DNA of 36,246 bases from a virus. Both the position numbers and the translations under genes were made by a program. A model generated the notes under the pieces. The model ran no database searches. It saw nothing but the letters and a program-made list of their open reading frames with translations, and was not told where the DNA came from. Within the stretch, counting starts at the first letter, position 1. Every line of letters starts with the position of its first letter. The DNA lies in the IMG/VR virus record IMGVR_UViG_3300009175_000039, positions 1-36,246 of that record. The stretch is one strand, 5' to 3'. Positions 1 to 9,449 of this stretch are shown piece by piece.

Positions 1-32
1 ATATTGTATTATTATTAAAGAAAAGAACACCG

Positions 33-257
33 ATGATCAGAGATCCTTATATTTTTTTCCAGTATTACCAGTTGAATGGTGATGACGAGAAACTTTCATG
101 CCCGAGCGGTCATGGTGCAATGCACCCATTTGTAGATCCTATTAGTGCAATGCCATACTTTGAGTGCTTGGGTTGTACTTCTAGGATAACACCGGGAATT
201 GATCTATATACGCACATGAAACTTGTAGTTGATAGCATAGATGCTACCCATGAATGA
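33..257 (+). CDS. Small zinc-ribbon-like protein, unknown function
   Basis: A 74-residue protein that I cannot assign to a named family. It carries two cysteine/histidine pairs, CPSGH near residue 23 and CLGC near residue 46, about 20 residues apart, which suggests one structural zinc site. The rest is a mixture of aromatic and acidic residues with no membrane segment. The start is an ATG preceded by a weak purine-rich AAAGAAAAG. It is the first gene seen and overlaps the next frame, so it probably belongs to a polycistronic unit entering from the left. The zinc site is inferred from residue spacing only. Confidence 0.6.
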   Translation: MIRDPYIFFQYYQLNGDDEKLSCPSGHGAMHPFVDPISAMPYFECLGCTSRITPGIDLYTHMKLVVDSIDATHE

Positions 258-444
258 AGAGCAGTCAGCGCAACTCCTTGAAATTTTAGGTGGAATATAC
301 ATAATGGGATTGCGTCAATACGATTTATTGTGTATCATTGCAGATAAGTTAGGAGCAGATGTGGTGGGTTTGAAAAACTTACACGAACAAGGATATGTCC
401 TTGGTCCAGACCCCGCCCTTCGACTAGACGATGAGAAACCGTGA
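241..444 (+). CDS. Small hypothetical protein
   Basis: A 67-residue acidic protein overlapping the preceding gene by 17 bp and the following HNH gene by 14 bp, an arrangement typical of translationally coupled phage genes. A second in-frame ATG at 250 (giving MNEEQ) is an equally possible start; neither has a strong Shine-Dalgarno sequence. Residues 10-40 look amphipathic and helical (leucine and isoleucine every three to four residues). I do not recognise a family. The dense overlap with two neighbours is the main support for it being real. Confidence 0.5.
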   Translation: MLPMNEEQSAQLLEILGGIYIMGLRQYDLLCIIADKLGADVVGLKNLHEQGYVLGPDPALRLDDEKP

Positions 445-706
445 AATCACGAATTGGATCAAGTTGTATCTTGGTTGTCAGATTTGCGGGTATAAAGAGC
501 ATCCGGCTGCTCTTACCTTTGATCATATCGATAAGTCTAATAAGTATCGCACTAAGTCTGGTGATTTAGTTCACATGTCAGACATGATCAAGGCTGATAG
601 ATACTCCCTTGAAACTGTGCTAAAAGAGATTGACAAATGCCGGGTCCTGTGTTTTAATTGTCATATGTCTACGGAATATGACTCCAGACTTGATTATAGT
701 TATTGA
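431..706 (+). CDS. HNH endonuclease-like zinc protein
   Basis: A 91-residue protein matching small phage HNH proteins. It has a first zinc knuckle CQICGY around residue 16, the conserved AALTFDHID core around residues 26-34 (the DH of the beta-beta-alpha-metal fold), and a second knuckle CRVLCFNCH near residue 70. Members of this family nick or cut DNA and occur as free-standing homing enzymes or as packaging helpers; which applies here cannot be read from the sequence. It lies just upstream of tRNA-Thr, a common place for mobile HNH genes. The family assignment is strong and the role is inferred. Confidence 0.8.
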   Translation: MRNREITNWIKLYLGCQICGYKEHPAALTFDHIDKSNKYRTKSGDLVHMSDMIKADRYSLETVLKEIDKCRVLCFNCHMSTEYDSRLDYSY

Positions 707-709
707 TAC

Positions 710-782
710 GCCATTGTAACTCAGTTAGTAGAGTGTCTGTCTTGTAAACAGAATGTCGCGGGTGCAAATCCTGCCTGTGGCT
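710..782 (+). tRNA. trnT: tRNA-Thr (anticodon TGT)
   Basis: A 73-nt cloverleaf. The acceptor GCCATTG pairs with CTGTGGC (one T-T mismatch). The D arm is ACTC/GAGT, the anticodon stem TCTGT/ACAGA encloses loop CTTGTAA, and the T arm is GCGGG/CCTGC with loop TGCAAAT. CCA is not encoded at the 3' end. It starts four bases after the HNH stop codon, so it is probably co-transcribed and processed. The mismatch and the unusual T loop (TGC rather than TTC) are slightly degenerate features. Confidence 0.85.
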
Positions 783-973
783 CCCACCCCAAACTCGTAT
801 ATAAGTTCAAACATCGCTCAGATTGAGCGCGGCTAAGAAACACTCCTTCCAACTGTACATGATAACATTTACTATAGTATAGATGGCTCATTCTGGGGGT
901 TACTGACAAGAGATAATAATAGAGGGCGTCTAATGACCCCCGCCAAATTTATAAGGTCTTAGAAAGGCTAGAA
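783..973 (+). other. Intergenic stretch after tRNA-Thr
   Basis: About 190 bp with no convincing gene. It holds a small hairpin GCTCA-GAT-TGAGC at 815-827 just behind the tRNA, which may aid 3' processing or termination. It also holds a looser inverted repeat between GGGGGTTA (near 895) and TGACCCCC (near 938). The last bases, GAAAGGCTAGAA ahead of the ATG at 974, match the leader in front of the WhiB gene at 6294, so this end is a ribosome-binding region. Confidence 0.4.
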
Positions 974-1036
974 ATGGGTTCAAAGAAAATTATTGACACA
1001 CCTCTTAGTAGGTCCAACAATACCGGCCCACGGTGA
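974..1036 (+). CDS. Very short ORF (20 aa) with phage-type leader
   Basis: A 20-codon ORF starting MGSKKIID and ending in a TGA that overlaps the GTG start of the next gene (GTGA overlap). Its leader GAAAGGCTAGAA is almost identical to the leader before the WhiB gene at 6294, which argues that ribosomes start here. It may be a leader peptide coupling translation of the downstream gene or a real microprotein. There is no recognisable domain. The evidence is leader similarity and stop/start coupling only. Confidence 0.4.
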   Translation: MGSKKIIDTPLSRSNNTGPR

Positions 1037-1191
1037 GAGCCTACATCGAACTAAATGATGATCCTACTACTATTGCTGATATAACAGTATTTGAAGAAGG
1101 ATTTTTACAGGAAAGAACGGCTTGGGTCCACCGCCCGCTTCCTTGGACTATTGAGGATATTGTTCCAGAATTTCTCTATGAAGAACCGTAA
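1033..1191 (+). CDS. Small acidic hypothetical protein (52 aa)
   Basis: A 52-residue frame starting at a GTG that overlaps the stop of the preceding mini-ORF. The product begins VRAYIELNDD and ends EFLYEEP, and is rich in acidic and aromatic residues. No family recognised. There is no independent Shine-Dalgarno sequence, so it probably depends on translational coupling. The frame is fully open over 159 bp and ends just before an extended -10 promoter for the next gene. Confidence 0.55.
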   Translation: MRAYIELNDDPTTIADITVFEEGFLQERTAWVHRPLPWTIEDIVPEFLYEEP

Positions 1192-1194
1192 TTC

Positions 1195-1203
1195 TGATAT
1201 AAT
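1195..1203 (+). promoter_or_regulatory. Extended -10 promoter TGATATAAT
   Basis: TGATATAAT is a perfect extended -10 (TGN plus TATAAT) 32 bp before the ATG at 1235, with a Shine-Dalgarno AAGGAG between them. No good -35 is visible, as expected for an extended -10 promoter. It presumably drives the coiled-coil gene as a single unit that ends at the terminator at 1646. Confidence 0.65.
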
Positions 1204-1234
1204 AGAATAGAAATACATCTTTAAGGAGCAATTA

Positions 1235-1618
1235 ATGCAATTCTCCCATCACGCTGATGCATTTGATCACTTTTCAGATCGTCAGTTGCTTGAATCAGTC
1301 ATAAAACTAATAATAAATATGGAGATTAAATTGACAGACGCATTCGCAGAGTTGTCTACAAATGTTGACGCTCTTACAGCAGCAGTATCTAAGTTAGGTA
1401 CAGATGCTCAGCCCGGCCTTGATGCACTACACAAGGCTCTCGCAGACGCTCAAGCCAGTCTAATTGCTACTCAGACTGCCGACGCTGCAACAATTGCTGA
1501 TCTACAGGCACAATTGCAAGCAAATCTTACAAGTGCTAGCGTGGCTGCTGGAAATGTTCAGGCTGCCGTTACCGCTATTACTGGTATTGATGCAACACTC
1601 GCACCTCCCGTTGCGTAA
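1235..1618 (+). CDS. Alanine-rich coiled-coil protein
   Basis: A 127-residue protein with its own promoter, a clear AAGGAG ribosome-binding site 6 nt before ATG and its own terminator, so it is a monocistronic and probably well-expressed gene. After a short N-terminus (residues 1-30) the remainder is almost entirely alanine/leucine/threonine with hydrophobic residues in heptad spacing, pointing to a long helix or coiled coil; an Ala/Pro tail follows. An internal ATG at residue 29 (MEIKLTDAF) could give a shorter product. Small coiled-coil proteins like this occur in many actinophages, often without known function. It might be a structural or scaffold-type protein, but that is inference. Confidence 0.7.
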   Translation: MQFSHHADAFDHFSDRQLLESVIKLIINMEIKLTDAFAELSTNVDALTAAVSKLGTDAQPGLDALHKALADAQASLIATQTADAATIADLQAQLQANLTSASVAAGNVQAAVTAITGIDATLAPPVA

Positions 1619-1645
1619 TTGCCGACGGGTTTTGGCATCAAAAGG

Positions 1646-1674
1646 TCCCCCTATGTAATGTAGGGGGATTTTTT
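1646..1674 (+). terminator. Rho-independent terminator
   Basis: Stem TCCCCCTA / TAGGGGGA with loop TGTAATG, followed directly by TTTTTT. It ends the unit of the coiled-coil gene. Confidence 0.9.
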
Positions 1675-1857
1675 GTGTTATTTGTGTTTGGGTAACTATG
1701 TTACTGGCGAGTAACTTTTAAATTGAAAAAATGTTCGACTGGCGATTTAATGGATGATACGCCAATATTCTAACCGATAACCGATTGTTAGTGCGCCCAT
1801 ACGACGTGACCTAATCGTTATAATTATCTTCTAAATATGTGCTCCAAAGGGTTGATT
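1675..1857. other. Non-coding stretch before the early arm
   Basis: About 180 bp without a gene. It contains a hairpin GTTACT-GGCG-AGTAAC near 1699-1714. It also contains a short element reading CCCATACGACGT followed by GACCTAATCGTTAT (about 1797-1824), which resembles 12314-12346, where the same bases form the start region of a small minus-strand gene. Otherwise nothing is recognised. Confidence 0.35.
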
Positions 1858-1880
1858 CTGTCGGTGGTATGCCGTAGAGT
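1858..1880 (+). promoter_or_regulatory. RecA-NDp-like promoter 1
   Basis: CTGTCGGTG, an 8-bp spacer, then TAGAGT. This fits the actinobacterial DNA-damage promoter consensus TTGTCRGTG-N8-TANNNT. The leader ends in AAGAAAGAGAGGC before the ATG at 1907. It drives the first copy of the zinc-protein cassette. Confidence 0.75.
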
Positions 1881-1906
1881 ACTTATAACAAGAAAGAGAG
1901 GCAGTC

Positions 1907-2074
1907 ATGACTACTCAGACTCCCGCCCCGGTCACTTCCCCAGTGATCTACTACAAGACCCTAGAGGGTTGCCCGCGTTGCACTACCGACGCCTATGTAC
2001 CCCACTTCAACTGTATCCGCCCCGGACAGTCTGGCCACTCGGCCAGCCACTGCACCGCAAGTTCCTGCTACTAG
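1907..2074 (+). CDS. Zinc-binding microprotein, cassette copy 1 gene A
   Basis: A 55-residue protein with a cysteine/histidine pattern GCPRC near residue 20, HFNC, then SGHSASHC and a terminal SCY. It is clearly paralogous to the 69-residue product at 3016: the central portion is almost identical, including one identical DNA stretch of about 45 bp. Proteins of this type recur in actinophages without assigned function. The start is the ATG after the AGAGGC leader of promoter 1. The unit continues into genes at 2087, 2260 and 2472 with short spacers or overlaps. Confidence 0.75.
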   Translation: MTTQTPAPVTSPVIYYKTLEGCPRCTTDAYVPHFNCIRPGQSGHSASHCTASSCY

Positions 2075-2086
2075 AGAGATAGAATC

Positions 2087-2263
2087 ATGAGCAACTACCA
2101 CTGGTGTGAAACCTGCGGGACCGCCCGCGCTACCTTCGTCGATACGTCCGGCCGAGTGGATCTCTATGTCTGCGATGACTGCGCATACGCGGAGTTGGCC
2201 CGCTCGATGTTGACGAACGATCAGGGCGAGATCCCGTGGCCGACTTGGACGGTGCGACCATGA
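2087..2263 (+). CDS. Zinc-ribbon microprotein, cassette copy 1 gene B
   Basis: A 58-residue protein opening MSNYHWCETCGTARAT with a CETC knuckle and a second CDDC knuckle near residue 30, that is, a two-knuckle zinc ribbon. It is paralogous to the product at 3240, sharing MSNY and CGTARAT. It follows gene A by 12 bp and its TGA overlaps the ATG of the next gene (ATGA), implying coupled translation. The role is unknown; zinc ribbons of this size usually mediate contacts with nucleic acid or RNA polymerase, but nothing here shows which. Confidence 0.75.
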   Translation: MSNYHWCETCGTARATFVDTSGRVDLYVCDDCAYAELARSMLTNDQGEIPWPTWTVRP

Positions 2264-2475
2264 GAGTCACCAAAGGCAATGGGACAGCCGTACATATCGC
2301 TAAGGCGTTTAGTCTAGCCGCGAGTGCGTGGGTCGATCCGGAACTATGTCCGGACGGTAACCTATCAACAGCATGCGACCACTGGGGCGACCGTGGCGCG
2401 TACAGTAGCCGTATCCGTCCCACAACCTTAGAGGTAACCTGTAAAACCTGTCTAAAGAAAGAGGAAAGACCATGA
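2260..2475 (+). CDS. Small cysteine-containing protein, cassette copy 1 gene C
   Basis: A 71-residue protein starting at the ATG inside an ATGA overlap with gene B; a longer frame from 2236 is possible but lacks the coupling. It has ELCPDG, a CDHWGD segment near the middle and a C-terminal CKTCLKK knuckle, so a zinc site is possible. This resembles actinophage proteins that describe themselves only by CXXC and H-W-G motifs. A truncated relative of its first codons lies at 3374 in the second cassette copy. Confidence 0.65.
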   Translation: MRVTKGNGTAVHIAKAFSLAASAWVDPELCPDGNLSTACDHWGDRGAYSSRIRPTTLEVTCKTCLKKEERP

Positions 2476-2645
2476 CCCGCAAGGACTACCAACTAGTAGC
2501 CAACGTACTCAGGGCACAACGTGCTGGATATTGGACGCCAGAAGCGGATCTAGCCACCGTCATCACGGCCCTAGCCGATGCACTAGAGGCCGAGAATCCG
2601 CGCTTTGACCGTAACAAATTCCTAAAAGCCACGGAGGTTTCATAG
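2472..2645 (+). CDS. Conserved small actinophage protein
   Basis: A 57-residue protein of a pattern familiar from actinobacteriophages: MTRKDY at the N-terminus, a helical middle segment, and NPRFDRNKFL near the C-terminus. The function is unknown. It overlaps the previous gene by 4 bp (ATGA) and is preceded by a GAGGAAAGACC ribosome-binding sequence that lies inside gene C. It ends immediately before the DnaA-box cluster and has no paralogue in the second cassette. Confidence 0.8.
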   Translation: MTRKDYQLVANVLRAQRAGYWTPEADLATVITALADALEAENPRFDRNKFLKATEVS

Positions 2646-2658
2646 GAGGAAACGATGG

Positions 2659-2880
2659 TTATCCACAGGGTCAATTGGCTCTGTGGATAACTTATCCCCA
2701 TGTTATCCCCACCTGTGGATAACCTGTGGATAAACTTCGGTGCGGTCGCACCTAAGATCTTGGCCGCGAGTTTACCTACAGGAAACGTTTACGATGTACG
2801 ATGATCAACTTTTAGATTTTTTTGAGCAATAGCCTCATAAAAAATAATCGTATACAATCTACCGTTTCCTACAATGCAAC
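2659..2880. other. Candidate replication origin: DnaA boxes plus AT-rich element
   Basis: Four perfect TTATCCACA boxes (2659-2667 forward; 2682-2690, 2714-2722 and 2725-2733 reverse) and two one-mismatch TTATCCCCA boxes (2692-2700, 2703-2711) lie within 75 bp. From about 2800 to 2880 the DNA is very AT-rich (runs such as TTTAGATTTTTTT and ATAAAAAATAATCG), like an unwinding element. This is the expected layout of a DnaA-dependent origin. A short ATG frame at 2655 with a good AGGAGGAAACG leader runs through the boxes for only 11 codons and is probably incidental. Confidence 0.7.
2753..2767. promoter_or_regulatory. CAAGATCTTGGCCGC-type operator half, copy a
   Basis: TAAGATCTTGGCCGC, one base different from the left arm that recurs at eight places in the early arm. 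The right arm is not conserved here, but TTTACGATGTACGATG follows, as in the other modules. It sits between the DnaA boxes and promoter 2. Confidence 0.55.
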
Positions 2881-2961
2881 ATTTTCCTATGTAATGACAT
2901 ATCAACCGTTACCATTCCGTTATAATACAATGTCCGATATGCACACATTCCAAGCCCGAAA

Positions 2962-2984
2962 ATGTCGGACCCCTATGCTAGGAT
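2962..2984 (+). promoter_or_regulatory. RecA-NDp-like promoter 2
   Basis: ATGTCGGAC, an 8-bp spacer, then TAGGAT; it fits TGTCR and TANNNT with exact spacing. It precedes the second copy of the zinc-protein cassette. A TATAAT at 2931-2936 may be an additional promoter. Confidence 0.7.
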
Positions 2985-3015
2985 GATTGCATCATCAAAT
3001 AGTAAAGGATAGAAA

Positions 3016-3225
3016 ATGACTACTAGTACTCCCGCCCGCGATTTCGCGGCGCTTCGCGTGCTCACCGATGCCGCGCCTTGGCTGGCCGTATCTGAAATCA
3101 CCTACAAAACCCTAGAGGGTTGCCCGCGCTGCACCACCGATATCTACGTGCCGCACTACAACTGTATCCGCCCCGGACAGTCTGGCCACTCGGCCAGCCA
3201 CTGCACCGCTAACGCTTGCTATTAG
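3016..3225 (+). CDS. Zinc-binding microprotein, cassette copy 2 gene A
   Basis: A 69-residue paralogue of the product at 1907 with an N-terminal insertion of about 15 residues (ARDFAALRVLTDAAP region) before the shared TYKTLEGCPRCTTD block. The conserved zinc ligands (CPRC, HYNC, SGHSASHC, ACY) are all retained. The leader AAAGGATAGAAA precedes the ATG. The high DNA identity of the shared part, against divergent flanks, indicates a fairly recent cassette duplication. Function unknown. Confidence 0.75.
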   Translation: MTTSTPARDFAALRVLTDAAPWLAVSEITYKTLEGCPRCTTDIYVPHYNCIRPGQSGHSASHCTANACY

Positions 3226-3239
3226 AAAGAAGATATATC

Positions 3240-3377
3240 ATGAGCAACTACTACCGATGCGAAAACTGCGGGACCGCCCGCGCTACCTGTGTGGTTAGGA
3301 CCGAGTCCGGCCTACTGGATGTCTGTGGTGACTGCGCCTCCCCGGCGCGCGGATTGGAATGGGGGGATGACCGATGA
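3240..3377 (+). CDS. Zinc-ribbon microprotein, cassette copy 2 gene B
   Basis: A 45-residue shortened paralogue of the product at 2087. It keeps MSNY, CENCGTARAT and a CGDC knuckle but loses about 13 C-terminal residues. It begins 14 bp after gene A. Its TGA overlaps an ATG at 3374 in exactly the same ATGA configuration as copy 1, which shows that the duplication originally included the start of gene C. Confidence 0.7.
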   Translation: MSNYYRCENCGTARATCVVRTESGLLDVCGDCASPARGLEWGDDR

Positions 3378-3478
3378 GCGTTACCAAAATGTTACATTCC
3401 AATTCCCCCAAACCTATTGTTTCTGTCGGTGCCATGACATACAATAAATTCATGAACAACAACGAGAAAGAGGCCTAA
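3374..3478 (+). pseudogene. Truncated gene C remnant overlapping promoter 3
   Basis: A 34-codon frame whose first codons (MSVTK) match the start of gene C in copy 1 (MRVTK), after which the sequence is unrelated. The frame runs through promoter 3 and the ribosome-binding leader of the next gene. The simplest reading is that gene C was replaced after its fifth codon by a promoter segment and the short frame is a relic. It may still be translated by coupling to gene B. Confidence 0.5.
3423..3445 (+). promoter_or_regulatory. RecA-NDp-like promoter 3
   Basis: CTGTCGGTG, an 8-bp spacer, then TACAAT, a perfect match to TTGTCRGTG-N8-TANNNT apart from the first base. It lies inside the truncated gene C frame. 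The leader CAACAACGAGAAAGAGGC follows, directly ahead of the ATG at 3480. Confidence 0.75.
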
Positions 3479-3479
3479 A

Positions 3480-3677
3480 ATGATGGCTATTAGCGACACC
3501 GAATTCCCACGGCTGCATCAGCGCATTGACATCGCAATGGAAGTTACCCACCCAAACGGCACAGTCGAGGAAAAAGTTATTTCCCTAAGCCCCTACTACT
3601 TGTCGCACTTTCTCATGGGCTACACCGCTAACGGTGCTAAGGTTTCTAAAATTAGTTTCACAGAACCGGAGGCCTGA
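3480..3677 (+). CDS. Small hypothetical protein
   Basis: A 65-residue protein with no recognised domain. It has alternating polar and hydrophobic residues suggesting beta structure (VTHPNGTVEEKVISLS) and a single aromatic cluster. The first gene after promoter 3, with an AAAGAGGC ribosome-binding leader. An ATG at 3483 (the second Met) is an equivalent start. It is followed after 2 bp by the next gene, so they are co-transcribed. Confidence 0.65.
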   Translation: MMAISDTEFPRLHQRIDIAMEVTHPNGTVEEKVISLSPYYLSHFLMGYTANGAKVSKISFTEPEA

Positions 3678-3679
3678 TC

Positions 3680-3868
3680 GTGTTTGATACTCTCTATTCT
3701 GTAATGATCGACTACACCGGCACTCCCGCCGAATTAGATACCGACCTATTGGCCGGGCTGACCGGGATCTTTGAAAGCCGGGAGGCAGCAATCCGTCTTG
3801 CCAATCTCTTAGAGGATCAAGGCTTCGGCGTAAAGATCGAAACCCTAGAAATGGAAGTCACATCATGA
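3680..3868 (+). CDS. Small hypothetical protein, GTG start
   Basis: A 62-residue acidic protein starting at a GTG with an excellent CGGAGG sequence 7 nt upstream. The C-terminal half (REAAIRLANLLEDQGFGVKIE) reads like an alpha-beta unit seen in small phage proteins that modify reading of an amino-acid gradient, but no family is assigned. Its stop overlaps the start of the next gene (ATGA). Confidence 0.65.
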   Translation: MFDTLYSVMIDYTGTPAELDTDLLAGLTGIFESREAAIRLANLLEDQGFGVKIETLEMEVTS

Positions 3869-3984
3869 CCACGGACGTCGATTGCGATGAGTGTGGCACC
3901 ACGGTCGCCGTGCGGGAAGTCGACGGGCCAAATGGAAAAGAATATCTATGTATCTACTGCTTGATCTTGGGCTATCATGACTAG
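3865..3984 (+). CDS. 39-residue zinc-ribbon microprotein
   Basis: Starts in an ATGA overlap with the preceding gene. Two knuckles, CDEC near residue 7 and CIYC near residue 29, make a minimal treble-clef or ribbon-like zinc site with little else in the protein. It overlaps the next frame by 8 bp. Too short for the usual ORF cut-off, but the coupling and cysteine pairs support it. Confidence 0.6.
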   Translation: MTTDVDCDECGTTVAVREVDGPNGKEYLCIYCLILGYHD

Positions 3985-4060
3985 TTCAGGAATCATCGTT
4001 GTCTATACCATCATCATTCTGTCTTTCATCGTAATGATCTTAGGCATGGGGGAGAAATGA
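3977..4060 (+). CDS. Single-pass membrane microprotein (27 aa)
   Basis: A 27-residue product consisting almost wholly of one hydrophobic segment, residues 5-23 (IIVVYTIIILSFIVMILG), flanked by MTSS and GEK, so a single transmembrane helix. Stop and start overlap with neighbours on both sides (ATGA type). Such peptides in phages can be holin-like, inhibitors of host membrane proteins, or unknown. No direct evidence for any of these. Confidence 0.5.
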   Translation: MTSSGIIVVYTIIILSFIVMILGMGEK

Positions 4061-4119
4061 TCTATGTCCTCGGAATGGTCCTTTTTTCGGTTGCCAGCCT
4101 CAAATTCTTTGGGAGATGA
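4057..4119 (+). CDS. Second membrane microprotein (20 aa)
   Basis: A 20-residue hydrophobic peptide (MIYVLGMVLFSV at its start, FGR at its end) overlapping the previous membrane peptide by 4 bp. It is followed by a 10-codon ATG frame at 4121 that I do not call separately. The chain of three ATGA overlaps suggests real translation, but length makes this weak. Confidence 0.4.
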   Translation: MIYVLGMVLFSVASLKFFGR

Positions 4120-4207
4120 AATGATCATTTTCACATGGTCTCTAGGAGGCTAAAATTTGGGACAGGCGCTCAAAAAATTAGGTGTTGACAAAATTTTTTT
4201 TAGCAGG

Positions 4208-4236
4208 CAAGATCTTGGCCGCGGGCCAATATCTTG
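4208..4236. promoter_or_regulatory. 29-bp dyad operator, copy b
   Basis: Arms CAAGATCTTGGCC and GGCCAATATCTTG around GCG: a 13-bp inverted repeat with one mismatch. It is followed by TTGTCAA-GTC-TTACGATG-TTACGATG. It lies 38 bp upstream of promoter 4. Dyad symmetry and repetition suggest a dimeric protein binding site. Confidence 0.7.
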
Positions 4237-4274
4237 TCAAGTCTTACGATGTTACGATGGTGGCTTGCTTGATT

Positions 4275-4297
4275 CTGTCGGACCCTTGTGCTAGAGT
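4275..4297 (+). promoter_or_regulatory. RecA-NDp-like promoter 4
   Basis: CTGTCGGAC, an 8-bp spacer, then TAGAGT. The leader CTACCACCAACCGAGAGGC leads to the ATG at 4327. The promoter and leader are nearly identical to promoter 5. Confidence 0.75.
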
Positions 4298-4326
4298 GTA
4301 ACTACCACCAACCGAGAGGCACCGTT

Positions 4327-4467
4327 ATGTGTGAAGATTTTCCCTGCTGCGGCCACGAGCGCGGCGACTGTCGCGGTCAGAAGTACGGCTCGGATGCCAG
4401 CATCATTGCTGCCGAATATCGCCGCATGGCACGCGAGGATGACGGCTACTACTCAGATTGGGACTAG
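4327..4467 (+). CDS. Small cysteine-rich phage protein
   Basis: A 46-residue protein starting MCEDFPCCGHERGDC, with a compact Cys/His cluster (C2, C7, C8, H10, C15) that could hold zinc, followed by a mixed helix and an acidic YYSDWD tail. The N-terminal pattern is familiar from actinophage hypothetical proteins. It is monocistronic: own promoter, own dyad and a UUCG hairpin right after the stop. A much longer frame from 4331 in another register runs through here and is spurious in its first part. Confidence 0.65.
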   Translation: MCEDFPCCGHERGDCRGQKYGSDASIIAAEYRRMAREDDGYYSDWD

Positions 4468-4470
4468 ACC

Positions 4471-4492
4471 GCTTGACCCTTCGGGGTCAAGC
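4471..4492 (+). terminator. UUCG-capped hairpin
   Basis: Perfect 9-bp stem GCTTGACCC / GGGTCAAGC with TTCG loop, 3 bp after the stop codon. No strong T-run follows, so it may be a weak terminator or a 3' stabiliser. Confidence 0.7.
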
Positions 4493-4495
4493 AGG

Positions 4496-4524
4496 CAAGA
4501 TCTTGGCCGCGGGCCAACATCTTG
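4496..4524. promoter_or_regulatory. 29-bp dyad operator, copy c
   Basis: CAAGATCTTGGCC-GCG-GGCCAACATCTTG, one mismatch between arms, overlapping the end of the UUCG hairpin module and followed by TTGTCAA-GTC-TTACGATG. Confidence 0.7.
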
Positions 4525-4537
4525 TCAAGTCTTACGA

Positions 4538-4553
4538 TGTGACTTACGACACA
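4538..4553. promoter_or_regulatory. Crp/GlxR-like site (one mismatch)
   Basis: TGTGACTTACGACACA matches TGTGANNTANNTCACA with one mismatch in the right half. It is centred about 53 bp upstream of the expected start site of promoter 5. Confidence 0.55.
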
Positions 4554-4569
4554 CCAATTTACCTAGATT

Positions 4570-4592
4570 CTGTCGGTGCCTTGTGCTAGATT
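4570..4592 (+). promoter_or_regulatory. RecA-NDp-like promoter 5
   Basis: CTGTCGGTG, an 8-bp spacer, then TAGATT, with the ACCACCAACCGAGAGGC leader behind it. Confidence 0.75.
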
Positions 4593-4621
4593 GTACCTAC
4601 CACCAACCGAGAGGCACGAAA

Positions 4622-4819
4622 ATGACCGATTTCGACTTGGACCGCAGCGACTACGATGTTGACGAGTTCAATTTCCCGACCCCCGAGTTCGAGGAATTCT
4701 TCCCCGAAGAGTGGGAGGACCGGGCGGATTCTTTCGATGAGGACGAGGCTCAGGCCATGCAGGACGCGGCTGATGCGCTTGAGTACTACTCAGCCTTTAG
4801 CACGCAGGATTGGGGATGA
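4622..4819 (+). CDS. Highly acidic protein, DNA-mimic candidate
   Basis: A 65-residue protein with 23 Asp/Glu, two Arg and no Lys, giving a net charge near -21, with many aromatic residues (F, Y, W) spaced between the acids. Small phage proteins of this composition often mimic DNA and block restriction enzymes, nucleoid proteins or repair complexes; that role is inferred from composition only. The start is fixed by the conserved GAGAGGCACGAAA leader of promoter 5. It is monocistronic with a UUCG hairpin 9 bp after the stop. Confidence 0.7.
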   Translation: MTDFDLDRSDYDVDEFNFPTPEFEEFFPEEWEDRADSFDEDEAQAMQDAADALEYYSAFSTQDWG

Positions 4820-4828
4820 TCAGCGACC

Positions 4829-4850
4829 CGCTTGCCCTTCGGGGCAAGCG
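4829..4850 (+). terminator. UUCG-capped hairpin
   Basis: Perfect 9-bp stem CGCTTGCCC / GGGCAAGCG with TTCG loop, immediately followed by operator copy d. Confidence 0.7.
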
Positions 4851-4854
4851 CACC

Positions 4855-4883
4855 TAAGATCTTGGCCGCAGGCCAACATCTTG
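4855..4883. promoter_or_regulatory. 29-bp dyad operator, copy d
   Basis: TAAGATCTTGGCC-GCA-GGCCAACATCTTG, then TCAAGTC-TTACGATG-TTACGAATG. A separate 8-bp hairpin AGTGTTTC / GAAACACT lies just downstream, around 4909-4931. Confidence 0.7.
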
Positions 4884-4936
4884 TCAAGTCTTACGATGTT
4901 ACGAATGTAGTGTTTCCTGTGATGAAACACTAATAT

Positions 4937-4952
4937 TGTGACCTAAGTCACA
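4937..4952. promoter_or_regulatory. Crp/GlxR-like site (perfect)
   Basis: TGTGACCTAAGTCACA, a perfect match to TGTGANNTANNTCACA, centred about 54 bp upstream of the predicted start site of promoter 6. Confidence 0.7.
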
Positions 4953-4969
4953 CCGATTTACCCTAGATT

Positions 4970-4992
4970 CTGTCGGTCCTATCTGATAAGTT
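4970..4992 (+). promoter_or_regulatory. RecA-NDp-like promoter 6 (leaderless)
   Basis: CTGTCGGTC, an 8-bp spacer, then TAAGTT; the ATG of the next gene begins 7 bp after the -10, so the transcript is predicted to be leaderless. Confidence 0.7.
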
Positions 4993-4998
4993 GTCCCT

Positions 4999-5706
4999 AT
5001 GTCACTCACACGATCACGCGACCGCAAGGTCACTAATGCCGTCTCGCCTAATGGTAAGACACCTACAATAGCCAATACTTTTGGATTACCCGCCGGGATC
5101 GAATTCTCATGCCCGGGTGCCACGTCATTCTGTAGTAAGATCTGCTATGCTGGCAAACTGGAGAAGATCTACAAGGGCGTACGGAATATCTTGACCGACA
5201 ATTTCGAGCAATTGGTCAACGCCGAATCTGGCGAGATGGTATCTCTAATCAGCAATATGATTTCAGAATTCCGGGCGGATTGCGTGAAGCGTGATGCGCC
5301 TAAGTTATTCCGTATCCATTGGGACGGTGACTTTTTTAGTCCCGTCTATACTGCCGCGTGGTCAAAGGTTATCCGTGCATATCCTGACGTTCAATTCTGG
5401 GTTTATACTCGCGTGGCCCCTAGTGCCCTATTCTTGCATAGCATGAAACTAGAGAACCTCGCCCTATACTTTAGTGCCGATCCAGACAATATCGAGGCGG
5501 CACGTATTCTAGAATCACGCGGTATCAATATCGCATATGTCGATACATCCTTTGCTAATGGTAAGGAACAATTCCCCAATGCTACCCGTTGCCCTGAGAA
5601 TAACAAGGCATTGCCACTAATCTCCGATAAAGGTAGCGCGTGCGTTAGGTGTGGTTTGTGTGTCAATGGTCGCAAGTCCGTGCTATTCTCAACAACTAAA
5701 AGATGA
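4999..5706 (+). CDS. Gp88-like cysteine-rich phage protein
   Basis: A 235-residue protein resembling the phage 'gene product 88' domain family (recalled as PF17338). Visible features are FGLPAGIEFSCPGATSFC near residues 28-45 followed by SKICYAGK, an HWDGDFFSP segment near 107, FWVYTRVAPS near 133, and a C-terminal cysteine set RCPENN...CVRCGLC ending FSTTKR. Ten or so cysteines suggest a metal or Fe-S cluster; the biochemical function of the family is not known to me. The ATG lies at the predicted transcription start, with no Shine-Dalgarno, so translation is probably leaderless. It heads an operon with the genes at 5713 and 5875. Confidence 0.75.
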   Translation: MSLTRSRDRKVTNAVSPNGKTPTIANTFGLPAGIEFSCPGATSFCSKICYAGKLEKIYKGVRNILTDNFEQLVNAESGEMVSLISNMISEFRADCVKRDAPKLFRIHWDGDFFSPVYTAAWSKVIRAYPDVQFWVYTRVAPSALFLHSMKLENLALYFSADPDNIEAARILESRGINIAYVDTSFANGKEQFPNATRCPENNKALPLISDKGSACVRCGLCVNGRKSVLFSTTKR

Positions 5707-5712
5707 GGAATA

Positions 5713-5868
5713 ATGGATAATCTAACTGATAAGGTAGTCGATCTTACTAGCGTTGATGAACTGCTCTGGGAGTTTGACGGGGACCTATTGCATAACTACC
5801 TTTATTCCCGTTCATGGGACTGTATATGTGTCAATCCTAAAGGACAATTGGTCCACATGGATGGATGA
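5713..5868 (+). CDS. Small acidic hypothetical protein
   Basis: A 51-residue protein starting 6 bp after the Gp88-like gene with a GATGAGGAA ribosome-binding sequence. It is acidic in the first half (VDLTSVDELLWEFDGD) and has a C-I-C pair near residue 38. No family recognised. Its spacing indicates co-expression with the Gp88-like protein. Confidence 0.6.
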   Translation: MDNLTDKVVDLTSVDELLWEFDGDLLHNYLYSRSWDCICVNPKGQLVHMDG

Positions 5869-5874
5869 GGGCTA

Positions 5875-5946
5875 ATGTCTGCCCTATTTGGGTTTATAGT
5901 AAGTTTATTATTTGTTATCAAATTGTTACATTCTATCGGGAGGTAG
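5875..5946 (+). CDS. Membrane microprotein (23 aa)
   Basis: A 23-residue peptide with one hydrophobic segment (LFGFIVSLLFVIKLL) ending HSIGR. It begins 6 bp after the previous stop with a GAGGGCTA leader and ends 4 bp before the UUCG-type hairpin, so it fills the operon exactly. It resembles the membrane peptides at 3977 and 4057 in length and style. Function unknown. Confidence 0.45.
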   Translation: MSALFGFIVSLLFVIKLLHSIGR

Positions 5947-5950
5947 AGGT

Positions 5951-5974
5951 TGCCTACGCCTTCGGGCGCAGGCA
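5951..5974 (+). terminator. UUCG-capped hairpin
   Basis: Stem TGCCTACGCC / GGCGCAGGCA with one A-C mismatch and a TTCG loop, 4 bp after the operon's last stop codon. Confidence 0.65.
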
Positions 5975-6000
5975 AGATCTTGGCCGCTGGAAGATCTTTG
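5973..6000. promoter_or_regulatory. CAAGATCTTGGCCGC operator, copy e
   Basis: Left arm CAAGATCTTGGCCGC followed by a degenerate right arm GGAAGATCTTTG. TCAACTCAT-TTACGATG-CTTACGATG follows, the same order as in the other modules. Confidence 0.65.
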
Positions 6001-6024
6001 TCAACTCATTTACGATGCTTACGA

Positions 6025-6040
6025 TGTGAGGTACATCACA
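6025..6040. promoter_or_regulatory. Crp/GlxR-like site (perfect)
   Basis: TGTGAGGTACATCACA, a perfect match to TGTGANNTANNTCACA, at the same distance from promoter 7 as the site of promoter 6. Confidence 0.7.
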
Positions 6041-6057
6041 CCAAGACTATGCCCATA

Positions 6058-6080
6058 TTGTCGGTGGTATCTGCTATTGT
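6058..6080 (+). promoter_or_regulatory. RecA-NDp-like promoter 7 (leaderless)
   Basis: TTGTCGGTG, an 8-bp spacer, then TATTGT: a full match to the consensus. An ATG lies 6 bp after the -10. Confidence 0.8.
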
Positions 6081-6086
6081 GTACTT

Positions 6087-6239
6087 ATGAGACAAACACG
6101 AAGGCCACAGGCCCAGAAGTTGCATCCCGCCCGAGTTGTGCAGGTGCAAGAACTACGACGCAGCAACGCTGCCCAACCTCACCGTTCCGGTAAGGAATAT
6201 GTCCGCAAGCCAAAGCACGGGAATTGGGGTTCAGAATGA
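6087..6239 (+). CDS. Leaderless, highly basic small protein
   Basis: A 50-residue Arg/Lys/His-rich product beginning MRQTRRPQAQKLH and ending KPKHGNWGSE; it is strongly basic with very few acidic residues, as expected of a nucleic-acid-binding peptide. The ATG sits 6 bp after the -10 of promoter 7, so the mRNA should be leaderless. This precise placement supports the frame over the longer overlapping frame from 5912, which begins upstream of the promoter. It is the only gene between promoters 7 and 8. No family recognised. Confidence 0.65.
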   Translation: MRQTRRPQAQKLHPARVVQVQELRRSNAAQPHRSGKEYVRKPKHGNWGSE

Positions 6240-6242
6240 AAA

Positions 6243-6265
6243 CTGTCAGACCCTTGTGCTATAGT
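6243..6265 (+). promoter_or_regulatory. RecA-NDp-like promoter 8
   Basis: CTGTCAGAC, an 8-bp spacer, then TATAGT (R = A variant). The leader CTACCAACAACGAAAGGC follows, ahead of the WhiB ATG. Confidence 0.75.
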
Positions 6266-6293
6266 ATTCCTACCAACAACGAAAGGCTAGAAA

Positions 6294-6530
6294 ATGTGGC
6301 AATTTGAGGCAGTATGTGGACCCGAGGACGAAAAACTAATGTTCTCGGAACTCCCGTCGAAAATTGAGAAGATGAAGGTGCTTTGCTCTACCTGCCCAGT
6401 CGAGGCGGATTGCCTAAACTTTGCTATTGCCAACGATATCGAGTGGGGCATCTTTGGCGGGACAACCCCGAAGGATCGGAGACTCCTAAGCGAAGATCAG
6501 TTCCCGTCCTATTCGAGGGCCGCGGTATGA
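6294..6530 (+). CDS. WhiB-like transcription factor
   Basis: A 78-residue WhiB-family protein. The four Fe-S ligands are C8, C31, C34 and C40 (CX2CX5C core), followed by the turn motif GIFGG at residues 52-56 (usual form G[IV]WGG) and the basic TTPKDRR. WhiB proteins bind a 4Fe-4S cluster and act with the main sigma factor to turn genes on or off; phage versions can silence host whiB genes. The Phe in place of Trp in the turn is unusual. Start set by the CAACAACGAAAGGC leader of promoter 8. The stop overlaps the next gene (ATGA). Confidence 0.9.
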   Translation: MWQFEAVCGPEDEKLMFSELPSKIEKMKVLCSTCPVEADCLNFAIANDIEWGIFGGTTPKDRRLLSEDQFPSYSRAAV

Positions 6531-6838
6531 GACTCACTCTGGGTGGTCGGGAATACCCGCACGTGAAGTTGTGTCAGGGGACCTACGGCGACGGCAGCCT
6601 CGCGTTGATCTTCAAGGACGAGAACTTGGAGCGGCTAGCGACTGCCACGGTGTACTTGGACGTGAGTCCGAGTGCGGGTTGTGTCTGGATCAAGGACTGG
6701 TCCGAGAACGAAGGGATGCTGGATTCGTTGGTCAAGGCCCGAATCATCGAGCCGACCGGACGAACTCAGCCGACAGGTTGGGTCAAGGCAATCGAAGCGC
6801 GATTGCTTGTCGATCTTGCTCAAGTAGATCGACTCTGA
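6527..6838 (+). CDS. DUF4313-like phage protein
   Basis: A 103-residue protein beginning at the ATG that overlaps the WhiB stop; a longer upstream frame is discounted because it overlaps the WhiB gene. The pattern (LTLGGREYPHVKLCQGTYGDGSLAL near the start, then ATVYLDVS, then IKDWSENEGML near residue 56) resembles the DUF4313 family common in phages and mobile elements, function unknown. The DNA is clearly more GC-rich than the neighbours, suggesting separate acquisition. Confidence 0.65.
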   Translation: MRLTLGGREYPHVKLCQGTYGDGSLALIFKDENLERLATATVYLDVSPSAGCVWIKDWSENEGMLDSLVKARIIEPTGRTQPTGWVKAIEARLLVDLAQVDRL

Positions 6839-6849
6839 AAGGGCGCTGT

Positions 6850-6900
6850 ATGAACCTGACTGAGTGCGTGCTGCCGCTGTTGTTATCCCGCCCCTACTAG
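6850..6900 (+). CDS. Very short hydrophobic ORF (16 aa)
   Basis: Begins MNLTEC and ends LSRPY, after a GAAAGGGCGC leader 8 nt upstream of the ATG. Placed directly behind the DUF4313-like gene. The good leader is the only support; it may be chance. Confidence 0.25.
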   Translation: MNLTECVLPLLLSRPY

Positions 6901-6962
6901 GAAAATTTCACGGTTGCGTGAAAAAAGATCTTGGAGAAAAGATATCTAAGATTGTTATATTT

Positions 6963-7035
6963 GGTTCTGTAACTCAGTGGTTAGAGTGCCACCCTGTCAC
7001 GGTGGAAGTCGCCGGTTCAAGTCCGGTCAGAATCG
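6963..7035 (+). tRNA. trnD: tRNA-Asp (anticodon GTC)
   Basis: A 73-nt cloverleaf: acceptor GGTTCTG / CAGAATC with discriminator G, D arm ACTC/GAGT, anticodon stem CCACC/GGTGG with loop CTGTCAC, and T arm GCCGG/CCGGT with loop TTCAAGT. No encoded CCA. It is inserted directly in front of a half UUCG hairpin, see 7045-7071. Confidence 0.92.
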
Positions 7036-7044
7036 CAAGAGACC

Positions 7045-7071
7045 TTCGGGCGCAGGCAAGATCTTGGCCGC
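7045..7071. promoter_or_regulatory. Half hairpin plus operator arm, copy f
   Basis: TTCGGGCGCAGGCA followed by AGATCTTGGCCGC is identical to 5961-5987, but the left side of the UUCG hairpin is missing and the tRNA-Asp gene stands in its place. The right operator arm is also lost; TTGTCAACCC-TTTTACGATG follows. Confidence 0.6.
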
Positions 7072-7100
7072 CAAAAGTCACATTGTCAACCCTTTTACGA

Positions 7101-7116
7101 TGTGACTTACGACACA
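7101..7116. promoter_or_regulatory. Crp/GlxR-like site (one mismatch)
   Basis: TGTGACTTACGACACA, the same variant as at 4538; here it lies about 39 bp upstream of the TGTCGG box rather than 16 bp. Confidence 0.5.
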
Positions 7117-7154
7117 CCAAAATCTTATGATTAGTTGGCCAAACACTCTAGATA

Positions 7155-7177
7155 ATGTCGGTCTGATCTGATAGTCT
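7155..7177 (+). promoter_or_regulatory. RecA-NDp-like promoter 9
   Basis: ATGTCGGTC, an 8-bp spacer, then TAGTCT. The leader CTACCAACAACAAGAGAGGC follows, to the ATG at 7208. Confidence 0.7.
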
Positions 7178-7207
7178 ACGACTACCAACAACAAGAGAGG
7201 CTTTAAA

Positions 7208-8206
7208 ATGGCTCATGAACTAGAAGTATCTGCCGACGGCGTAGCCGCTGCTGCTTTCCGATCCGCGCCCGCGTGGCACGGTTTGGGCACCGTATTCGAG
7301 TCCTCGGTGACTACGGGCGAGATGCTCGACCTAGCCCACCTGTCAGATTGGAATGTCACGCTTAACGCCGTATCCGATCATGCGCCGGAGGACTTCCGAT
7401 TCGTGCGCCAATCGTACATGGTCACCCGTACCAACCCATTCGATCAGGGTACGGACGTTCTCGCCACCGTGGGCGAGCGTTACAACGTAATTCAAAACGA
7501 AGAACTATTCGCCTTTGCGGACCATATCCTAGACGGTGGTGCCGAGTGGGAATCTGCTGGCTCTCTCAAGGATGGCCGAGTTGTCTTTGGTTCTCTAGTC
7601 ATTCCTCATGAATTTACCCTTGACCCGTCAGGTGCTGCTGACACTACCCGTACCTACCTATTGGTGAATACCTCTCATGACGGTTCGGTTGCTGTACAGG
7701 CTTCCGTCACTCCCGTTCGAGTTGTCTGCCAGAATACTCTCAACATTGCACTAGGTAATGTTAAGCAGTCATTCAAGGTTCGGCACACTCAGACAGTCGG
7801 CGGGAAGGTCGCGGCTGCTCGTGAGGCTCTTGATCTGACATATGCCTACATGGACGAATTCGAGGTAGAAGCACAGGCCTTGTATGCTGCTGCTATCACG
7901 GAAGCACAGTTTAACGCTCTAGTCGTTAGCCTGTACCCAAAGCCCGAAAAGGACGCTAAGGGCGCTCTCACCAAATGGGAGAATAAATTAGACGCTATTA
8001 ATACGCTTTGGGTTGGTGCGACTAACGAAAATATCCGTGGTACTGCTTGGGGTGCGCTAAACACGCTTACCGAGCGTCTGGACTACGGTCGGTCAGGTCG
8101 CGGTGACGAACGCAACCTAATCGCAGCGGCTTCGGGGTTCGATCCGGTGACCAACGCAGAAAAGGGGCGCATTCTACGCGCTACCAAATTGTTGGTTGGT
8201 GTCTGA
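7208..8206 (+). CDS. DUF932 / TIGR03299-type phage/plasmid protein
   Basis: A 332-residue protein matching the DUF932 (LGT_TIGR03299) family found in phages and plasmids. Typical features are PAWHGLG near residue 22, a middle block VGERYNVIQNEELFAFAD near residues 92-109, the GRVVF segment, and the VRVVCQNTL motif near residue 176. The family function is not settled; members are often among the most abundant early or accessory proteins of actinophages. It has its own promoter (9), an AGAGAGGC leader and a GAAA-capped terminator hairpin, so it is a monocistronic, probably strongly expressed gene. Confidence 0.92.
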   Translation: MAHELEVSADGVAAAAFRSAPAWHGLGTVFESSVTTGEMLDLAHLSDWNVTLNAVSDHAPEDFRFVRQSYMVTRTNPFDQGTDVLATVGERYNVIQNEELFAFADHILDGGAEWESAGSLKDGRVVFGSLVIPHEFTLDPSGAADTTRTYLLVNTSHDGSVAVQASVTPVRVVCQNTLNIALGNVKQSFKVRHTQTVGGKVAAAREALDLTYAYMDEFEVEAQALYAAAITEAQFNALVVSLYPKPEKDAKGALTKWENKLDAINTLWVGATNENIRGTAWGALNTLTERLDYGRSGRGDERNLIAAASGFDPVTNAEKGRILRATKLLVGV

Positions 8207-8214
8207 TCCCGATG

Positions 8215-8238
8215 GGGTGGGGGCGAAAGCCCCCACCC
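8215..8238 (+). terminator. GAAA-capped terminator hairpin
   Basis: Perfect 10-bp stem GGGTGGGGGC / GCCCCCACCC with GAAA tetraloop, 8 bp after the DUF932 stop codon. Confidence 0.85.
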
Positions 8239-8239
8239 T

Positions 8240-8273
8240 GTTTCCTATGAGGAAACGTTTCCTGTGAGGAAAC
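8240..8273. repeat. Two tandem GTTTCC...GGAAAC hairpins
   Basis: GTTTCC-TATGA-GGAAAC and GTTTCC-TGTGA-GGAAAC stand side by side, then AAAATTTTTTT. They may add to termination; related TTTCCTGTGA sequences occur near 4912 and near 2870. Confidence 0.55.
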
Positions 8274-8290
8274 AAAATTTTTTTCGCGCC

Positions 8291-8305
8291 CAAGATCTTG
8301 CCCGC
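8291..8305. promoter_or_regulatory. CAAGATCTTG operator half, copy g
   Basis: CAAGATCTTGCCCGC (one change from the common arm), followed by TTGTCAACTC and three TTACGA repeats. Confidence 0.55.
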
Positions 8306-8355
8306 ATGATCTTAATTGTCAACTCTTTACGACCTTACGATTACGATGTATCTTC

Positions 8356-8371
8356 TGTGATCTACGTCACA
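8356..8371. promoter_or_regulatory. Crp/GlxR-like site (perfect)
   Basis: TGTGATCTACGTCACA fits TGTGANNTANNTCACA perfectly; its centre is about 63 bp upstream of the predicted start site of promoter 10, close to a classical class I activator position. Confidence 0.7.
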
Positions 8372-8397
8372 TATTTCTGTAGAAAAAACTATGGACT

Positions 8398-8420
8398 TTG
8401 TCGTATCTGAATGCTAATCT
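8398..8420 (+). promoter_or_regulatory. RecA-NDp-like promoter 10
   Basis: TTGTCGTAT, an 8-bp spacer, then TAATCT; the weakest match at positions 7-9 but with the right spacing and in the right place. Confidence 0.6.
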
Positions 8421-8445
8421 CTACCTATAAGAGAAAAGGGGAGTT

Positions 8446-8646
8446 ATGATTGTAACTATAAAGGCACCTACTTCTGCTTCCGCCCGCGTTGGGTTGTTTG
8501 AAGCAATTAAATGTGGCTTAGATTGTACATATATGGAAGGTGATATCCTCAATTTAGTTGTGACTGATCTGAATAGGGCAACTCGATTGTCTGATAAGAT
8601 TGGCGGAACTGTTGTGGCTGTCGTTGATAGAATGGAGTGGAGATAA
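8446..8646 (+). CDS. Small hypothetical protein
   Basis: A 66-residue protein with alternating beta-like and helical segments (MIVTIKAP start, then ARVGLFEAIKCG, then LNLVVTDLNRATRLSDKI), suggesting a small alpha/beta fold. No family recognised. A good AAAAGGGGAG ribosome-binding sequence precedes the ATG. Its TAA overlaps the ATG of the following gene (TAATG). Confidence 0.65.
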   Translation: MIVTIKAPTSASARVGLFEAIKCGLDCTYMEGDILNLVVTDLNRATRLSDKIGGTVVAVVDRMEWR

Positions 8647-8777
8647 TGGACGAAGATCTCTTTGATCTATTAGATGTGTATATTGTAAAGAATATGATTG
8701 AGGATACAGAGATCAAGGCAATAGAGAAGTTTCTAGAATTTGTACAAGAAAGTATTGACTTCCTCCCGCCCGAATGA
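8646..8777 (+). CDS. Small acidic helical protein (43 aa)
   Basis: A 43-residue product of leucine/isoleucine heptads and many acids (MDEDLFDLLDVYIVKNMIED at its start), likely a single amphipathic helix pair. It starts in a TAATG overlap with the previous gene. Its last codons form the -35 and spacer of the promoter for the next gene. No family recognised. Confidence 0.6.
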   Translation: MDEDLFDLLDVYIVKNMIEDTEIKAIEKFLEFVQESIDFLPPE

Positions 8778-8783
8778 TAGAAT
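8755..8783 (+). promoter_or_regulatory. Consensus housekeeping promoter
   Basis: TTGACT, a 17-bp spacer containing TCCCGCCC, then TAGAAT. The leader CAACCCAACCGAAAGG follows, ahead of the ATG at 8815. This differs from the TGTCGG-type promoters used upstream. Confidence 0.8.
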
Positions 8784-8814
8784 CTTTCTATCAACCCAAC
8801 CGAAAGGAAACAAA

Positions 8815-8952
8815 ATGGCTAAGGTAAGCGTTTACACCTACTTGGAAAAGTGGGCAGATGGTACGGAGCGCATTGTCCTCCGTGAGTCCGGTCGTTTCTA
8901 CGACAATATCAGCCTGACGTCTTTGCGTAAGGCCCCGGCTGTAACTCGCTAG
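8815..8952 (+). CDS. Small basic hypothetical protein
   Basis: A 45-residue protein (MAKVSVYTYLEKWADGTER at its start) with a beta-hairpin-like N-terminus and a basic TSLRKAPAVTR end. No family recognised. The start is set by the CGAAAGGAAACAAA leader behind a consensus TTGACT/TAGAAT promoter; a longer frame from 8740 overlaps that promoter and is rejected. A GAAA-capped hairpin ends the unit 6 bp later, so this is a single, probably strongly expressed gene. Confidence 0.7.
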   Translation: MAKVSVYTYLEKWADGTERIVLRESGRFYDNISLTSLRKAPAVTR

Positions 8953-8957
8953 TCAAC

Positions 8958-8979
8958 GGGTGGGGCGAAAGCCCCACCC
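8958..8979 (+). terminator. GAAA-capped terminator hairpin
   Basis: Perfect 9-bp stem GGGTGGGGC / GCCCCACCC with GAAA loop; nearly the same sequence as the hairpin at 8215. Confidence 0.8.
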
Positions 8980-8998
8980 ATAACTATTTGGAGATAAC

Positions 8999-9436
8999 AT
9001 GCTGGCAAACGGAACAATTGACATCATCCCGGGACCTGACGGTGACCCATACATTTCTATGCCCCAACTGGGCATGCACCTGCTAAATTCTGCCATGCAA
9101 GTATGGGAGGAATTTATCGACAGCCCCGATGCTGCTATCTATGACAAGACGGACACAACCGTCCTAAAAGCCACGGTGCAATCATGGATTGCCCTAAACC
9201 TAGAACTAATGGAGTCGGCGGTATTCTATCGTGAAACCCAAGAAGCCCTACAGTCTGCTGAATCTGAATTACTAATGTCATACAAGGAAAAGCCTGAAGG
9301 GTGGGATGATCCCTATGAGCCAAGATGTGATGGCTGTGGTGTATCTATGGAAGATACCGCCGATTGGTGCTCAAATTGCGGGGCTTGTTCGTATCACTGT
9401 TCTAACTATGATGGATGCGGGGTAGAAGATGACTGA
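8999..9436 (+). CDS. Protein with C-terminal zinc ribbon
   Basis: A 145-residue protein. Residues 1-105 are a helical, acidic region of unknown type. The C-terminus holds eight cysteines in CDGC...WCSNCGACSYHC...CG, a double-knuckle zinc ribbon similar to the zinc-ribbon domains that sit at protein termini. It begins with a GGAGATAAC ribosome-binding site 20 bp after the preceding hairpin. Function unknown; the domain type suggests nucleic-acid or protein contacts. Confidence 0.7.
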   Translation: MLANGTIDIIPGPDGDPYISMPQLGMHLLNSAMQVWEEFIDSPDAAIYDKTDTTVLKATVQSWIALNLELMESAVFYRETQEALQSAESELLMSYKEKPEGWDDPYEPRCDGCGVSMEDTADWCSNCGACSYHCSNYDGCGVEDD

Positions 9437-9449
9437 TTCTCCTTGTAAT

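Follow-up and report, generated by a model that had tools for sequence, protein, structure and literature searches.

A conserved DnaA-box cluster in the early arm of a large actinophage, a candidate start site for replication by host DnaA

The window, i.e., the whole analyzed stretch of 36,246 nucleotides, is one complete viral record and represents a 36-kb fragment of a large phage. In its early arm, a cluster of six DnaA boxes was found within 75 bp. Judged from the comparison with related genomes, this cluster is a real element, which is conserved in the early arm of a phage family. The best explanation for it is a start site of phage replication to which the host DnaA would bind; a probability of roughly 0.45 was assigned to this reading.

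The cluster comprises four copies of the perfect nonamer TTATCCACA and two copies of TTATCCCCA and extends from 2659 to 2733 (Table 1), as described in the earlier note. The two TTATCCCCA boxes are probably weaker DnaA sites. No further TTATCC[A/C]CA site exists in the 36,246 bp of the window. From a Markov model of its sequence, 0.84 such sites were expected compared to the six observed, and the maximum in 300 windows simulated with this model was two sites in any 75 bp, which bears out the claim that the box density exceeds chance. The boxes had also been described as mostly of the same orientation, which is wrong, since three are located on each strand and inverted pairs are formed. Boxes 1 and 2 constitute an inverted pair of the type TTATCCACA-N14-TGTGGATAA with a start-to-start distance of 23 bp. 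For boxes 3 to 6 this distance is exactly 11 bp, approximately one helical turn.

Table 1. Features in and around the DnaA-box cluster of the window.
Feature	Position	Strand	Basis or remark
57-aa gene just before the cluster	2472..2645	+	relatives encode homologues in their early arm
DnaA box 1	2659..2667	+	TTATCCACA
DnaA box 2	2682..2690	-	TTATCCACA; inverted with box 1, N14 spacer
DnaA-like box 3	2692..2700	+	TTATCCCCA
DnaA-like box 4	2703..2711	+	TTATCCCCA; 11 bp from box 3
DnaA box 5	2714..2722	-	TTATCCACA; 11 bp from box 4
DnaA box 6	2725..2733	-	TTATCCACA; 11 bp from box 5
Perfect short inverted repeat GGTGCG-GT-CGCACC	2739..2752		sequence
AAGATCTTGGCC, usual start of the early-gene intergenic cassette	2754..2765		also found ahead of further early genes
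AT-rich DNA of low stability; candidate for an unwinding region or for DNA upstream of a promoter	2780..2925		AT content, duplex stability
TTTACGATGTACGATG, the copy at this site of the TTACGA pair element found in the early arm	2788..2803	+	
Early-promoter-like ATGTCGGACC...TAGGAT	2962..2984	+	similar TGTCGG...TGnTAGA before other early genes
69-aa gene after the cluster	3016..3225	+	opens the second cassette copy
GP88 family gene (PF17338)	4999..5706	+	early-arm landmark
DUF932 gene (PF06067)	7208..8206	+	part of the long terminal repeat in Samisti12-type phages

The early/late junction of the window (10.6-11.75 kb) was also searched for a box cluster and contained only sites with two mismatches. 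A near-identical sibling of the cluster was absent from the viral contigs searched. An attempt to identify the host by exact matches of the box array in bacterial genomes resulted in three unrelated and uninformative matches.

The boxes are located in a gap ranging from 2646 to 3015, for which a non-coding character and a position between two copies of a gene cassette had been proposed. Both are correct, with the addition that two small genes (2260-2475 and 2472-2645) separate the first cassette copy from the gap. The copies (1907-2263 and 3016-3377) share 84-86% identical DNA over long repeated stretches. This duplicated cassette consists of small genes with cysteine pairs and is rare among viral contigs. 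A connection between the boxes and the cassette was rejected, since only two distant relatives of the cassette genes were found, both in high-GC phages devoid of boxes.

AT-rich DNA next to the boxes, likewise noted before, could be identified with an offset of about 45 bp from box 6. Its AT content is 64-74% (50-bp windows, 2775 to ~2950) compared to ~55% window-wide, and the duplex stability of its weakest 60 bp falls in the lowest 1.4% for the window. The same DNA precedes an early-gene promoter cassette: the boxes are directly followed by the standard early-gene cassette consisting of AAGATCTTGG, TTACGA pairs and a promoter-like ATGTCGG...TAGGAT sequence. The AT-rich stretch is therefore also promoter-upstream DNA and does not on its own argue for an unwinding element. 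Intergenic cassettes of this kind were further found at 4234, 4522, 4881, 5998, 7083 and 8316 (all on the + strand), each in front of an early gene. They contain AAGATCTTGGCCGC, followed by TTGTCAA, paired TTACGA sites and often the promoter-like TGTCGG...TGnTAGA, and are probably an early regulatory element of the phage's own.

Based on its gene content, the window phage is a large lytic actinophage related to the Streptomyces phages of the Stanwilliamsviridae. Its terminase and its DUF932 protein share ~60% and 58% identity, respectively, with those of the Streptomyces phages, and RIIA/RIIB and a phosphoesterase are also common to both. Members of the family have a genome of about 130 kb with terminal repeats of about 11 kb, whereas the window record is a 36-kb fragment. 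Further features of the window are GP88, WhiB, a weak Lsr2-like match and six tRNAs. The early genes are oriented rightward over 1-11.2 kb, the late genes leftward from 11.7 kb onward. For positions 1-12000 of the window no similar phage DNA was found.

The gene for the large terminase (30482-33397, - strand) contains an intein-like insert of ~325 aa within the Walker A motif, which showed a match to LAGLIDADG_3 and a weak match to Intein_splicing and is absent in L204 and L207. A separate contig of 18.9 kb (L202) is identical to positions 26960-36246 of the window and extends past its end. Replication genes were sought in this extension, which was found to encode glycosyltransferase-type and sugar genes instead. 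The window record itself includes no replication genes of this phage.

Paired DnaA boxes could be identified in 29 out of 50 related records at ~60 places, compared to 2 places for a reversed control pattern. Of 15 actinophages from another group, which carry GP88 and have genomes of roughly 50 kb, none contained such a pair. In the six near-complete relatives (102-113 kb), the densest cluster is a single one and lies in the early arm. It holds 3-8 TTATNCACA sites in 500 bp, whereas shuffled genomes reached at most two, and 29 of the 58 TTATNCACA sites of these six genomes are located within 1 kb of it.

Sites at a distance of 11 or 12 bp from perfect boxes vary almost exclusively at positions 3 and 5. 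TTATCCACA was counted 58 times among them, followed by TTTTCCACA (10), TTATACACA (7), TTATGCACA (6), TTGTCCACA (3) and TTATTCACA (2). Positions 3 and 5 of the nonamer are those at which DnaA tolerates exchanges. The family-wide conservation and these DnaA-like tolerated variants argue well for the cluster as a genuine site of host DnaA.

The position of the cluster differs among the relatives. It was found upstream of GP88, as in the window, in L360, L361 and L370, and at the early/late junction in L362, L363, L366, L367 and L368. Low-stability DNA is present within ~300 bp of most clusters. Nine relatives, which belong to another branch than the Streptomyces phages, additionally contain 10-bp GTGGAG iterons at a distance of 14-390 bp from the boxes; three whole genomes with these iterons (G016, G025, G032) have them at no other place. 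Such a combination of iterons and boxes would be an origin-like pairing. The tandem iterons (L367 10643-10668, L041 10567-10592, L358 11708-11733 and further relatives) could be the binding array of an initiator or of the terminase. None were detected in the window.

Genes for a DnaB_C helicase, a DnaG-type primase, SSB, a DnaE polymerase and a UvsX recombinase were found in Samisti12 and in each of the six near-complete relatives. Among the scanned early proteins of the window, which is a fragment and whose small proteins mostly lack a family, no initiator gene near the boxes was recognized. A phage-encoded DnaA as reader of the boxes was rejected, since the DnaA C-terminal domain (Bac_DnaA_C, PF08299) was found in none of 23 records including the window, whereas control genomes gave matches. 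The near-complete relatives also share a conserved protein of 98 aa without a known family (L372 38125-38418; Samisti12 gp187), whose gene is flanked by those for helicase and primase and which is a possible helicase loader.

A replisome without a recognized initiator, together with a conserved box cluster beside weak DNA, makes a start by host DnaA the best explanation. Host DnaA would first bind the strong boxes and would then fill the two weaker TTATCCCCA sites between them. The adjacent AT-rich DNA would melt, the phage DnaB-type helicase would load on the melted DNA, and the phage primase, SSB and DnaE polymerase would take over synthesis. Of the earlier interpretation as a phage origin using host DnaA, the DnaA site is well supported; that it is the origin is plausible, with the skew signature absent and the satellites lacking the box pair.

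The GC skew of the six relatives tracks gene direction and revealed no origin signature. A turn at the cluster is seen only with converging gene arms, and it is a maximum instead of a minimum. In G016, where the genes run in the same direction on both sides, no turn is present at the cluster. GC skew was therefore rejected as origin evidence, since it is confounded by gene direction and has the wrong sign. Many phage origins show no turn in strand composition, so that this result is weak evidence.

MiniFlayer and MulchRoom are satellites without primase genes, which depend on BE-type helpers and make up 73-78% of the reads (PMC10690885). The box pair was found in neither of them, from which it follows that a DnaA-box origin is not needed in cis for helper-driven replication. 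Together with the unhelpful skew and with a fixed distance to the genome end in Streptomyces relatives, which equally suggests a role in end formation, this keeps the origin reading at its tentative level. The low number of one to four boxes in Samisti12-type phages also speaks against it, as do the two to four clusters of several relatives and the use of TTATCCACA in Streptomyces phages, since Streptomyces prefers TTGTCCACA as DnaA box (PMC4285127). The promoter-upstream character of the AT-rich DNA and the lack of replication genes in the window record count against it as well.

The inverted pair is kept in 15 out of 16 aligned Samistivirus/Karimacvirus regions, while the spacer between the boxes diverges. 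In a few aligned Streptomyces phages the first box is replaced by CTATCCACA, and the second box of Bmoc is interrupted. The direct terminal repeat of Samisti12 has a length of roughly 11 kb (PMC5764925) and includes the early arm equivalent to that of the window, with DUF932 and Lsr2.

End positions were derived for nine phages from published repeat lengths (PMC5764925, PMC10690885). In Samisti12-type phages, 60-62 bp separate the inverted pair from the genome end as mapped by experiment. Relative to the first base of the repeat, the box on the - strand lies at -71..-63 (MindFlayer -69..-61) in 8 of the 9 phages, and its partner on the + strand, where intact, at -94 or -93. A motif of the GTGT[A/G]AT type, GTGTAAT[A/G]|G, is conserved directly at the cut in the Samistivirus/Karimacvirus ends, e.g., at the mapped end L357 39046 (NC_042012.1 position 123045), and is a candidate cut-site motif of the terminase.

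The ninth phage, Jay2Jay (L429, KM652554), has a sequence in which boxes and motif are arranged alike, although it is off when the published repeat length is used. This length (10,778) is identical to that of Paradiddles and does not fit the cut position predicted by the motif, which is possibly due to an error in the published table.

These observations are the basis of the strongest rival, according to which the box pair is part of an end-forming element. Host DnaA or a phage protein that reads the same sequence, bound at a fixed distance, would help the terminase to cut, or would start local synthesis that duplicates the terminal repeat. The fixed distance in 8 of 9 phages next to the motif at the cut is in line with this. 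The freshwater relatives G042, G049 and L287 also contain boxes, AT-rich DNA and GGTGTAATGGG in the same order as the Streptomyces relatives, and the satellites without boxes carry their own terminases. However, no GTGTAAT was found within 1.5 kb of the window cluster, a mapped end is lacking for the window phage, and the boxes of the window and of the window-like group are located inside the early arm and not at the late-gene junction. For Jay2Jay to fit, the published repeat length would have to be wrong, and DnaA is not known to act in packaging. An end-forming role is thus rated as unlikely, and it is the least unlikely of the rivals.

The window and the Samisti12-type phages have the nonamers, the inverted pair (23 bp start to start), the lineage and the gene-free gap in common. 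They differ in that the pair of the latter adjoins the mapped end and the late-gene junction, whereas the window cluster lies ~8.5 kb into the early arm and comprises more boxes. Presumably, the window cluster would have the function of the pair near the cut in the relatives. A broader and rather doubtful proposal is that the genome-end machinery of actinophages with long terminal repeats includes host DnaA as a component. The pair 60-62 bp from the cut would then couple the initiation of synthesis to repeat duplication or packaging, and window-like lineages would have moved and enlarged the element within the early arm.

An improbable alternative is a DnaA sponge, in which boxes on early-entering and multiplying phage DNA would pull DnaA off the host origin and halt new host rounds. 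The dense early-arm arrays fit to this: 13 boxes, most of them spaced by 11 bp, were found in G039, whose DUF932 match is the longest among the relatives (62%), several relatives contain two to four clusters each, and the number of sites grows with the phage copies. Many relatives have only 2-4 boxes, however, too few to matter before replication, and titration needs neither the invariant pair geometry nor the fixed end distance of the Streptomyces phages.

Even less probable is a transcription switch, by which DnaA upstream of the early promoter would time gene 3016 and its neighbours. It is consistent with the position of the window boxes directly before an early-gene cassette with a promoter-like sequence, and with the L030/L037/L066/L298 group, where a conserved, promoter-like sequence and the start of a gene come after the boxes. 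In the window, however, the promoter-like site is ~230 bp away from the last box and the same cassette occurs without boxes before other early genes, and the boxes of Samisti12 and of most near-complete relatives are situated in gene-free gaps between converging genes. That the nonamer is read by a phage protein instead of host DnaA is very unlikely: the preferred DnaA box of Streptomyces is TTGTCCACA (PMC4285127) while its phages carry TTATCCACA, but the tolerated variants match DnaA, and the exact bacterial DnaA nonamer across many lineages would be a coincidence.

The candidate start site favored here resembles bacterial oriC in that strong and weak DnaA nonamers are clustered in both orientations beside AT-rich DNA, with a spacing of 11 bp for some of them. 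It differs from oriC in having six sites, in its location between small genes of a phage early arm without a dnaA/dnaN neighbourhood, and in an AT-rich stretch that doubles as promoter-upstream DNA. P1 oriR is an origin of a mobile element with DnaA boxes and iterons. The recruitment of host DnaA by a mobile element would be similar, and some relatives also add tandem 10-bp iterons beside the boxes. Unlike P1 oriR, the window has no iterons and no recognized Rep or initiator gene, and the phages are large and lytic with a replisome of their own.

As a box cluster outside the chromosomal origin, the element is also comparable to E. coli datA and other DnaA-titration clusters, from which it differs by its location on a phage; a titration or turnover of DnaA by it would be hypothetical. 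In lambda cos, a site for the host protein IHF is located at a fixed distance from the terminase cut. The Streptomyces relatives likewise have a probable host-protein site at a fixed distance from the cut; here the protein is a different one, and the likeness comes from these relatives and not from the window.

In the open literature searched, which excludes most subscription papers, no description of DnaA boxes in the Stanwilliamsviridae was found. For a Pseudomonas phage, an origin with DnaA boxes was predicted by software only (PMC11512268). DnaA boxes in the origins of mobile elements are thus known, and apparently new is a family-wide element in large lytic actinophages that is tied to a mapped genome end.

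The element bears on two questions, how replication starts in large lytic actinophages with their own replisome and how terminal repeats of about 11 kb are duplicated. Since the conserved element is present at a fixed distance from the end in cultured and sequenced Streptomyces phages, both questions are directly testable in laboratory strains.
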